Notes under the pieces: model-generated
What the model was told of the DNA's origin: nothing
The model's input: the letters and a program-made list of their open reading frames with translations, nothing else
The model's database searches: none
In this document: positions 50,092-53,543 of the stretch, one piece after another
Layout: each line of letters starts with the position of its first letter
How positions within the stretch are numbered: the first letter of the stretch is position 1
Origin: Alphaproteobacteria bacterium
GTDB lineage: Bacteria; Pseudomonadota; Alphaproteobacteria; SMXQ01
Reading direction: 5' to 3'
Assembly: GCA_030831315.1 (NCBI GenBank)
Contig: JAURLI010000015.1
Span: forward strand, 1 to 64,000
DNA: 64,000 nucleotides
Translations under genes and position numbers: made by a program

Positions 50092-50820
50092 ATGATCCTT
50101 CTGCGCTCCATCGTCTTCAACCTGCTGTTCTATGGATGGGCTGCGATCGCCGGTATCCTGCTGCTGCCGACGCTGCTGCTGCCGCGCGACCGCGTGCTCG
50201 ACATCGGCTGCTGGTGGTCGCTGTCGGTGATGCGCCTCGCCCGTGCGGTCTGCGGCATCGACTGGGAAATCCGCGGCCTCGACGCCATTCCCGAGGGCCG
50301 GGTGATCTTCGCCTCCAAGCACCAATCGGCCTGGGACACCTTCCTGTTCCCGGCCCTGTTCGGCCAGCCCGCCGCCGTCGCCAAGGCGGAACTGCGCTAC
50401 CTGCCCTTCTACGGCTGGTACACGAGCCGCGCAGGCACCATCTGGGTCGACCGCAAGGCGGGTTCGGCGGCGATCCGCTCGCTGGTGCGCGGCGCCCATG
50501 AGGCGCTGGCGCGCAACCGTTCCATATTCATCTTCCCCCAGGGCACGCGCACCGCGCCCGGCGACTACAGGCCCTACCAGCCGGGCATCGCCGCGCTCTA
50601 TTCCAGCCTCGACCTGCCGGTGGTTCCGGTCGCGCTCAATTCGGGCCAGTTCTGGGGACGGCGCGCCTTCAACAAGCTGCCCGGCAAGATCATCGTGCAG
50701 TGCCTGCCCGCCATTCCCGCCGGATTGCCGCGCGCCGAATTCATGAAGCGCCTCGAAGCGGTGATCGAGCAAGAAACCACCCGCCTCGAAGCCGCCGCCG
50801 ACACCCGCCCGCAAGGTTGA
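50092..50820 (+). CDS. plsC: 1-acylglycerol-3-phosphate O-acyltransferase (PlsC)
   Basis: The 242-residue acyltransferase has two hydrophobic segments at its N-terminus (SIVFNLLFYGWAAIAGILLLP), the catalytic HX4D motif SKHQSAWDTF (near residue 79), glycerol-phosphate block VDRKAGS and FIFPQGTRTAPG (near 150). The last is the alphaproteobacterial variant with Q for E. It acylates lysophosphatidic acid to phosphatidic acid. The ATG at 50092 is eight bases after the ydcF stop; the track start lies inside ydcF. Confidence 0.93.
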   Translation: MILLRSIVFNLLFYGWAAIAGILLLPTLLLPRDRVLDIGCWWSLSVMRLARAVCGIDWEIRGLDAIPEGRVIFASKHQSAWDTFLFPALFGQPAAVAKAELRYLPFYGWYTSRAGTIWVDRKAGSAAIRSLVRGAHEALARNRSIFIFPQGTRTAPGDYRPYQPGIAALYSSLDLPVVPVALNSGQFWGRRAFNKLPGKIIVQCLPAIPAGLPRAEFMKRLEAVIEQETTRLEAAADTRPQG

Positions 50821-50850: not shown

Positions 50851-50958
50851 TGTGGATAAGCCTGTGGAAAAGCCCGCGCTCACGCGCCGTGGATTTCGGG
50901 AATAACCCGAATACGCGGCCCGCCCCAAGGGGTTAGGAGGTGGCGCCGATGTGGAAAC
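50851..50958. promoter_or_regulatory. Cluster of DnaA-box-like sites in the nrdJ leader region
   Basis: TGTGGATAA at 50851-50859 is the exact complement of the consensus DnaA box TTATCCACA. TGTGGAAAA at 50863-50871 fits the relaxed box, in the same orientation with one helical turn spacing (12 bp). TGTGGAAAC at 50950-50958 is a third, weaker match. They lie 18 to 125 bp upstream of the predicted nrdJ promoter -35 element. DnaA control of ribonucleotide reductase is known in E. coli; the function here is inferred. Confidence 0.55.
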
Positions 50959-50975
50959 ATAACAAGAACATTCGA

Positions 50976-51004
50976 TTGACGCCCTGCCGGGGGCTTCCTA
51001 GAAT
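50976..51004 (+). promoter_or_regulatory. Predicted sigma70-type promoter of nrdJ
   Basis: TTGACG (50976-50981) and TAGAAT (50999-51004) are separated by 17 bp, the optimal spacing. The likely leader is about 94 nt before the ATG at 51105. No NrdR box or cobalamin riboswitch could be recognised in that leader. Confidence 0.6.
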
Positions 51005-51104: not shown

Positions 51105-53543
51105 ATGACCGGCGTCGCCCCCATCTCCCAGCAGATCTGGGACATGAAATACCGGCTCAAGAGCCCCACGGGCGAGGCTGTGGACAAGACCGTGTCCGAT
51201 ACCTGGACCCGGGTCGCCGCCGCCCTGGCCGAGGCGGAAACCCCGGAAACCCGCGCCCGCTGGACGGAAGCCTTCACCGGCGTGCTCGACAGCTTCGAAT
51301 TCCTGCCCGCCGGGCGCATCATCGCCGGCGCCGGCACCGGGCGCTCGGTAACGCTGTTCAACTGCTTCGTCATGGGCACCGTGCCCGACGACATGGCCGG
51401 CATCTTCACCCACCTGCGCGAAGCGGCGCTGACCATGCAGCAGGGCGGCGGCATCGGCTACGACTTCTCGACGCTGCGCCCCAAGGGCGCGCCGGTGAAG
51501 GGCGTGGGCGCCGATGCCTCGGGTCCGCTCTCCTTCATGGACGTCTGGGACGCCATGTGCCGCACGATCATGAGCGCGGGCTCGCGCCGCGGCGCCATGA
51601 TGGGCACCCTGCGTTGCGACCATCCCGACATCGAAGCCTTCATCGAGGCCAAGCGCGAACCCGGCCGGCTGCGCATGTTCAACCTGTCGGTGCTGGTGAC
51701 CGATGCGTTCATGGCCGCCGTCAAGGACGATGCGTCGTGGGAACTCAAGTTCGGCGGCACCGTCTATCGCACGGTGCGTGCGCGCGAATTGTGGGACCGG
51801 ATCATGCGCGCGACCTATGCCTATGCCGAGCCGGGCGTCATCTTCATCGACCGCATCAACCGCGCCAACAACCTGCATTACTGCGAAACCATCGCCGCCA
51901 CCAATCCCTGCGGCGAACAGCCGCTGCCGCCTTATGGTGCCTGCCTGCTGGGCTCGTTCAACCTGGCGCGCTTCGTGCGCGAGCCGTTCACCGAGAACGC
52001 CCGCTTCGACATCGAGCGCCTGCGCGAGGTGGTGCCGGTGGCCGTGCGCATGCTGGACAACGCCATCGACGTTTCGCGCTTCCCCCTCGACGCCCAGGCC
52101 CAGGAAGCCCGGGCCAAGCGGCGCATGGGCCTCGGCGTGACCGGCCTCGCCGACGCGCTGATCATGTGCCGGGTGCGCTACGGCTCCGATGAAGCGGTGC
52201 GCCTTGCCTCGCAGTGGATGGCCGAGACCGAACGCGCCGCCTATCTCGCCTCGGCCGAGATCGCCGCCGAAAAGGGTGCCTTCTCGCTCTACGACAAGGA
52301 CGCCTATCTCGCCGGCGAAACCATCGCCCATCTCGATGCCGATGTGCGCGAGGCCATCGCGGCGCACGGCATCCGCAACGCGCTGCTCACCTCGATCGCG
52401 CCGACGGGCACCATCTCGCTGTTCGCCGACAACGTGTCTTCGGGGCTGGAGCCGGTGTTCAGCTTCTCCTACACCCGCCATATCCTGCAGCCCGACGGTT
52501 CGCGCAAGGACGAGGAAGTCTCGGACTACGCCTATCGCCTGTACCGGCGCCTTTTCGGCGAGAACCGGGAACTGCCCTCCTATTTCGTCGATTCCCAGCG
52601 CCTGACGCCGAACGAACATGTCGTCATGCAGGCCGCCATCCAGAAGCACGTCGACAGTTCGATCTCCAAGACCATCAACGTGCCCGCCGACATCGACTTC
52701 GAGCAGTTCAAGGACGTCTACCTCAAGGCTTACGACCTCGGCTGCAAGGGCTGCACCACCTACCGCCCGAACGAGATCACCGGCTCGGTCCTGGAAGTGA
52801 AGCCGAAGGAGAAAGAGGAGGCCGAGGCCCAGCGCAAGCGCGAGGCCGAACGCGCCGCCCTTGAAGCCCGCGCCCGCAGCGAGGCGGAGGAACTTTCCGC
52901 CGCCGACGAAGGCCAGGAAGAACTGCCGCTCGGCGCGCCGCCGGCCCGCCACCGCGATGCCTTCGAGGCGGGCGGCGTCGTCTACATGACGCAGCCGCTC
53001 GATCGTCCGGGCACCCTGCCGGGGCGCACCTACAAGCTGAAATGGCCGGAATCGGACCACGCCATCTACATCACCATCAACGACGTCGTCCAGGACGGGC
53101 GGCGCCGTCCCTTCGAAATCTTCATCAACTCGAAGAACGTCGAGCATTTCGCCTGGACCGTCGGCCTGACGCGCATGATCTCTGCCGTGTTCCGCCGCGG
53201 CGGCGACGTGTCCTTCGTGGTCGAGGAACTGAAAGCCGTGTTCGATCCGCGCGGCGGCCAGTGGATGAACGGCCGCTACGTGCCCTCGCTGCTCGCCGCC
53301 ATCGGCGACGTGATCGAGCATCACCTGATCGATATCGGCTTCATCAAGGGGCGCGAGGATGTCGCCGCGCGGGCGCGCGAAATGGCCAAGGAAAAGATGG
53401 CGGCAGCGGGCGGCGGCAAGTCCGGCGGTGCCATCGGCGGCGGCGGCGCCATGCTGCAGTGCCCGAAATGCGGCGAGGCCGGCATGATCCGCCAGGAAGG
53501 CTGCGACCTGTGCCTGTCCTGCGGCCATTCAAAGTGCGGGTAA
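51105..53543 (+). CDS. nrdJ: Vitamin B12-dependent (class II) ribonucleotide reductase
   Basis: The 812-residue enzyme reduces ribonucleotides using adenosylcobalamin to make the thiyl radical. Visible marks are VTLFNCFVMG (redox cysteine, near residue 86), GGGIGYDFSTLRPKGA (near 122), TNPCGEQPLPPYGACLLGSFNL with the radical cysteine and Glu (near 268), LLTSIAPTGTISL (near 428) and a C-terminal zinc-ribbon or redox tail CPKCGEAGMIRQEGCDLCLSC. A TSCPD domain occupies about residues 640-730. A charged coiled-coil linker (KEKEEAEAQRKREAERAALEARA) precedes it near 570-600. It is the compact type, shorter than the roughly 1200-residue alphaproteobacterial version. It makes deoxynucleotides without oxygen dependence. 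Confidence 0.94.
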   Translation: MTGVAPISQQIWDMKYRLKSPTGEAVDKTVSDTWTRVAAALAEAETPETRARWTEAFTGVLDSFEFLPAGRIIAGAGTGRSVTLFNCFVMGTVPDDMAGIFTHLREAALTMQQGGGIGYDFSTLRPKGAPVKGVGADASGPLSFMDVWDAMCRTIMSAGSRRGAMMGTLRCDHPDIEAFIEAKREPGRLRMFNLSVLVTDAFMAAVKDDASWELKFGGTVYRTVRARELWDRIMRATYAYAEPGVIFIDRINRANNLHYCETIAATNPCGEQPLPPYGACLLGSFNLARFVREPFTENARFDIERLREVVPVAVRMLDNAIDVSRFPLDAQAQEARAKRRMGLGVTGLADALIMCRVRYGSDEAVRLASQWMAETERAAYLASAEIAAEKGAFSLYDKDAYLAGETIAHLDADVREAIAAHGIRNALLTSIAPTGTISLFADNVSSGLEPVFSFSYTRHILQPDGSRKDEEVSDYAYRLYRRLFGENRELPSYFVDSQRLTPNEHVVMQAAIQKHVDSSISKTINVPADIDFEQFKDVYLKAYDLGCKGCTTYRPNEITGSVLEVKPKEKEEAEAQRKREAERAALEARARSEAEELSAADEGQEELPLGAPPARHRDAFEAGGVVYMTQPLDRPGTLPGRTYKLKWPESDHAIYITINDVVQDGRRRPFEIFINSKNVEHFAWTVGLTRMISAVFRRGGDVSFVVEELKAVFDPRGGQWMNGRYVPSLLAAIGDVIEHHLIDIGFIKGREDVAARAREMAKEKMAAAGGGKSGGAIGGGGAMLQCPKCGEAGMIRQEGCDLCLSCGHSKCG

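Follow-up and report, generated by a model that had tools for sequence, protein, structure and literature searches.

The 64-kb stretch of DNA analyzed here (the window) belongs to an alphaproteobacterial genome (G000; 2.7 Mb, 99% complete) and carries a compact nrdJ gene on the plus strand (51105 to 53543), encoding an adenosylcobalamin-dependent (class II) ribonucleotide reductase (RNR) of 812 amino acids (TIGR02504; E value, 6.7e-177). Its 5′ neighbor, a 1-acylglycerol-3-phosphate acyltransferase-like gene of the plsC type (50092 to 50820, plus strand), matches TIGR00530 under the curated cutoff (E value, 4.8e-22) and ends 30 bp before the first of the following features: a perfect DnaA box, TTATCCACA (box 1; 50851 to 50859, minus strand), a second box, TTTTCCACA (box 2; 50863 to 50871, minus strand), a LexA-type direct repeat, AAAC-ATAACAA-GAAC (50955 to 50969, plus strand), and a −35 hexamer, TTGACG (50976 to 50981, plus strand), separated by a 17-bp spacer from a −10 hexamer, TAGAAT (50999 to 51004, plus strand). 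A sequence-only reading of this DNA had described boxes 1 and 2 as a perfect DnaA box with a second good one 12 bp on, and the hexamers as a near-ideal nrdJ promoter; both descriptions hold. Among the nrdJ promoters compared below, TTGA lies 2 to 11 nt past the LexA-type operator in 44 of 90, and the alignment has A/T-rich columns at a distance matching that of the −10 hexamer. No cobalamin riboswitch was found in the nrdJ leader by an Rfam scan, whose sole match in the window was a tRNA, and riboswitch control of nrdJ was dropped on that result.

The double DnaA box

Boxes 1 and 2 stand in tandem, with starts 12 bp apart and a gap of 3 bp. Together they form TTTTCCACAggcTTATCCACA (50851 to 50871), a double DnaA box in the sense of tandem boxes 2 to 3 bp apart of which at least one is near-perfect, at about −160 to −140 from the predicted start. 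Escherichia coli DnaA needs a double DnaA box in vivo, with a 2- to 3-bp gap at 15 of 16 regions detected by ChIP-seq, nrdA and nrdD included (PMC11317965). In the DnaA of G000, the box-reading motifs of domain IV, VARPRQ and GGRDHTTV, are intact and identical to those of E. coli.

By number alone, the boxes are unremarkable: the window holds two matches to TTWTNCACA, where 0.75 are expected, and at least two occurred in 15 of 100 shuffles. That count speaks for functionless chance matches, an explanation to which we give next to no probability. Both matches lie before nrdJ, and a genome-wide scan for TTWTNCACA-N3-TTWTNCACA, with the reversed pattern as the control, returned two perfect copies and one with a single mismatch in G000 (control, 0) and 18 copies in eleven family genomes (control, 0). 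With only two perfect doubles in the 2.7-Mb genome and none of the reversed pattern, the arrangement goes beyond chance, and its conservation, given below, is far above that of shuffles, permuted 9-mers, and other spacings. Neither the 3-bp tandem arrangement nor the conservation of the nrdJ boxes is due to chance.

The two perfect doubles of G000 are found only at nrdJ and at dcd, which encodes dCTP deaminase (NF005734; E value, 3.6e-159); the dcd copy (G000:C4:91646-91666; L131:3147-3167) lies about 100 bp upstream of the gene. A double also precedes dcd in the sister genome G001 and is mostly absent from the dcd promoters of more distant genomes. A chromosomal origin at 50851 was considered and set aside, with only two boxes present in a GC-rich intergenic stretch and a better candidate on contig C80. 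There, an AT-rich patch (G000:C80:8000-8200; L128:4000-4200), with 38 to 47% GC in a surround of about 70% GC, contains TTATACACA and the one-mismatch double box of the G000 scan, TTATCCACCgatTTATCCACA, and is a candidate chromosomal origin.

Conservation upstream of nrdJ

Upstream regions of compact nrdJ orthologs from alphaproteobacteria were drawn from two sources and compared. The carriers include Paramagnetospirillum, Zavarzinia, Skermanella, and Pelagibius, with strains named in their records, which leaves the model given below open to testing. In the initial set, TTATCCACA was the most frequent 9-mer before nrdJ, present in 29 of 92 other-genome promoters; among the 1,680 permutations of its letters, the count averaged 0.17 and the runner-up reached 10. 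Its density in that set was 0.82/kb before nrdJ versus 0.012/kb in the remainder of the same loci. The final set comprised 89 other promoters, strand-corrected and with near-duplicates removed. Exact TTATCCACA was found in 31 of these (0.2 in shuffles), TTWTNCACA in 42 (0.6 in shuffles), and the 3-bp double, with its second box, in 19 (0.0 in shuffles); double boxes with gaps of 2, 4, and 6 bp numbered 3, 1, and 3, respectively. The exact box is strongly biased in orientation (28:5). Lack of conservation at orthologous nrdJ genes had been named by the sequence-only reading as evidence against itself; the counts for the exact box and the double point the other way.

The boxes are not universal. 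Of the sampled family members, the five whose upstream region is complete all have the exact box, and about half of the nrdJ promoters have no TTWTNCACA box; the Rhodobacteraceae genera mostly carry none at nrdJ, as do many other lineages. At least 26 changes of the trait are needed on the NrdJ tree, so it has often been lost or gained. Once phylogeny is considered, the presence of DnaA boxes and that of LexA sites at nrdJ are uncorrelated.

The LexA-type operator

A weaker third DnaA box had also been proposed, TGTGGAAAC (50950 to 50958, plus strand), which differs from TTATCCACA, read on the minus strand, by two mismatches. The promoter alignment places it as the conserved 5′ half of a longer element just 5′ of the −35 hexamer, termed element 2 (TGTGGAAACATAACNNGAACAT; window copy TGTGGAAACATAACAAGAACATT, 50950 to 50972), where it overlaps the LexA-type operator. 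The third box was thus a misreading of the 5′ part of this conserved operator, and a probable second regulator was missed with it. Element 2 is found in 29 of the 89 other promoters (0.0 in shuffles), on the coding strand every time. Its core is the direct repeat AAACA-N6-GAACA, and the form RAAC-N7-GAAC occurs in 56 of 90 nrdJ promoters, versus 0 to 6 at each other spacer length between N3 and N13. In an open search of the coding strand for NAAC-N7-GAAC, the first base was A in 41 sites, G in 16, and C or T in none. The window operator, AAAC-N7-GAAC, is one mismatch (A for the first G) from GAAC-N7-GAAC, which is itself found perfect at the nrdJ promoter in 16 genomes.

Alphaproteobacterial LexA binds GTTC-N7-GTTC (PMC3323433), and the Caulobacter site is (T/A)TGTTC-N6-TGTTC (PMC13384398), which in the reverse reading becomes GAACA-N6-GAACA-(A/T). 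Element 2 resembles these operators in being a direct repeat with a 7-bp spacer and matches the reversed Caulobacter form (PMC3323433, PMC13384398); it differs in its first half-site, which here is AAAC rather than GAAC. Among the lexA promoters of relatives, GAAC-N7-GAAC is present in 10 of 10, as GAACTAAACTAGAACA in eight of them, and the repeat is present in some recA promoters. The lexA gene of G000 (G000:C19) has GAACTAAACTAGAACA in its own promoter, and a further exact match precedes a PHP/DNA polymerase III alpha-type (dnaE-type) gene. Because the repeat resembles the alphaproteobacterial LexA motif and its G-form stands at lexA, element 2 is probably a LexA-type operator.

Two side observations concern these motifs elsewhere. 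A perfect LexA-type repeat, GTGGGAACATAACAGGAAC, occurs in L144 and L149 (G006:C12 and G004:C101) and in G002:C65; a Sel1-repeat gene, possibly an unlisted SOS gene, lies downstream of it in G006 and G004. Element 2 also occurs singly, as GTGGAAACATAACGGGAAC, away from nrdJ in L147 (G001:C14:35428-35446), near open reading frames that look by eye like phage packaging genes.

DnaA might act by itself, third box included, as at E. coli nrdAB, with the GAAC repeat belonging to a longer stretch contacted by DnaA or RNA polymerase. The conserved double box would suit this, as would the fact that TGTGGAAAC is one mismatch from TTWTNCACA and starts element 2 in about 20 promoters. The repeat, however, has its spacer fixed at 7 bp and also occurs without TGTGG, and 16 promoters carry the perfect LexA consensus; we regard DnaA acting alone as very unlikely.

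A different possibility is that DnaA acts on the double box while some regulator other than LexA binds element 2 as an AAACA-N6-GAACA site. The A-form predominates at nrdJ (41 of 57 sites) and is absent at lexA or recA (0 of 16), so another factor could read the nrdJ operator. Moreover, the A of the first half-site is fixed in all 30 copies of element 2 (the TGTGG-containing form), and GTGG or GTTG stands just before the repeat in 24 of 41 A-forms versus 0 of 16 G-forms. Against this, the perfect GAAC-N7-GAAC occupies the equivalent promoter position in 16 genomes, and the match extends to the flanking A and W of the Caulobacter LexA consensus (PMC13384398), which makes a regulator other than LexA rather unlikely. 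The A-form and its preceding GTGG or GTTG would also be consistent with an overlapping weak DnaA box, as that A is demanded by the DnaA consensus; our hypothesis is that such a box overlaps the LexA-type operator.

Conversely, LexA (SOS) might be the only regulator of nrdJ, with the double box serving as a DnaA titration or reactivation site of the datA or DARS type that has no effect on the gene. At about 140 to 160 bp upstream of the predicted start, the double box is far for direct contact, and double boxes are also found in E. coli datA and DARS (PMC11317965). Nevertheless, many distant genomes keep the boxes at nrdJ, in one orientation, and the other perfect double of G000 also stands before a gene of deoxynucleoside triphosphate (dNTP) metabolism, dcd. 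LexA as the sole regulator is, in our estimate, unlikely.

Two class II reductases

NrdB was not detected in G000 or in most sampled relatives; its absence from G000 is why the idea that this genome relies mainly on a class I RNR was set aside. G000 also encodes a second NrdJ, a long one of about 1,250 amino acids (NF005736; G000:C45:30155 onward, L138:1850-2156), whose promoter contains an NrdR-like box, CGTCAATATATTGTGT, but lacks DnaA boxes. NrdR-like boxes (ACACWATATATWGTGT) were sought in the long and compact promoter sets, the contrast between the two sets serving as the control. They are present in 10 of 19 long nrdJ promoters at up to 3 mismatches and in 14 of 19 at up to 4; DnaA boxes occur in only a few of those 19. 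Among the compact nrdJ promoters, a single one (L055) has an NrdR-like box at up to 3 mismatches, and NrdR control of the compact gene was rejected with boxes almost absent. These promoters suggest that the two NrdJ paralogs are under different control. Extended to many alphaproteobacteria, such a division could place the long NrdJ under NrdR, responding to nucleotide pools, and the compact one under DnaA and LexA competing at overlapping sites; we consider this broader scheme possible but doubtful.

Discussion

We propose that DnaA and LexA jointly control the compact nrdJ, with 50851 to 51004 forming a compound promoter, and we put the probability of this reading at about 0.68. DnaA control of nrdJ is well supported by sequence. 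Of the earlier proposal that DnaA controls a class II RNR, the part that stands is carried by the double box, its conservation and orientation, domain IV of DnaA, and the double at dcd; the third box, now assigned to a LexA-type operator, no longer contributes. In the proposed mechanism, a DnaA dimer would bind the 3-bp-spaced double box, and the amount and nucleotide state of DnaA would set nrdJ transcription, as at E. coli nrdAB. LexA would bind the (A/G)AACA-N6-GAACA operator, centered near −49 and directly 5′ of the −35 hexamer, and would adjust the promoter after DNA damage. The window form, TGTGGAAACA..., may double as a weak DnaA site, in which case DnaA and LexA could compete. The motifs, their spacing and conservation, and the genes for DnaA and LexA are observed; the direction of regulation, its cell-cycle timing, SOS induction, and the binding of DnaA and LexA at nrdJ are what we infer from them.

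That DnaA regulates nrdAB is established for E. coli and has been proposed for Caulobacter (PMC8203912), where nrdA of Caulobacter crescentus is marked as part of the DnaA regulon (PMC3973325, Table 1). The window resembles E. coli nrdAB (class Ia) in having a 3-bp-gap double box before an RNR gene (nrdA, TTATCCACAaagTTATGCACT; PMC11317965) and in linking, as we propose, the replication initiator to dNTP supply; it differs in the enzyme, which is class II and B12 dependent, in its alphaproteobacterial host, and in the LexA-type operator beside the −35 hexamer. E. coli nrdD, bound by DnaA in ChIP-seq, likewise has a double box before an RNR gene (PMC11317965), but its gap is 2 bp and its enzyme an anaerobic one of class III. 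C. crescentus nrdA shares with the compact nrdJ an alphaproteobacterial host and a place for an RNR gene in the DnaA regulon, listed there (PMC3973325; PMC8203912) and proposed here, but encodes a class I enzyme, whereas G000 has no detectable NrdB and two class II enzymes.

The E. coli uvrB promoter carries a LexA operator. Like the nrdJ promoter, this promoter (DARS1/LexA) brings a LexA operator and DnaA boxes together (DnaA boxes, PMC11317965), but uvrB is a repair gene, and its LexA motif is another one. A search by title and abstract, covering few subscription journals, found no paper on DnaA at a class II RNR or on DnaA or LexA at alphaproteobacterial nrdJ; given that coverage, this is weak evidence of novelty.

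If the proposal is true, DnaA control would span all three RNR classes, with class I known from E. coli and class III supported by ChIP; this would suggest that the initiator stays coupled to dNTP supply regardless of the enzyme used. Through the LexA-type operator, DNA damage would become a further input at the nrdJ promoter, and the difference from the long NrdJ, with its NrdR-like boxes, would help account for the presence of two B12-dependent reductases per genome. The promoter features suggest that, in these bacteria, dNTP supply may be coupled to replication initiation as well as to DNA repair.
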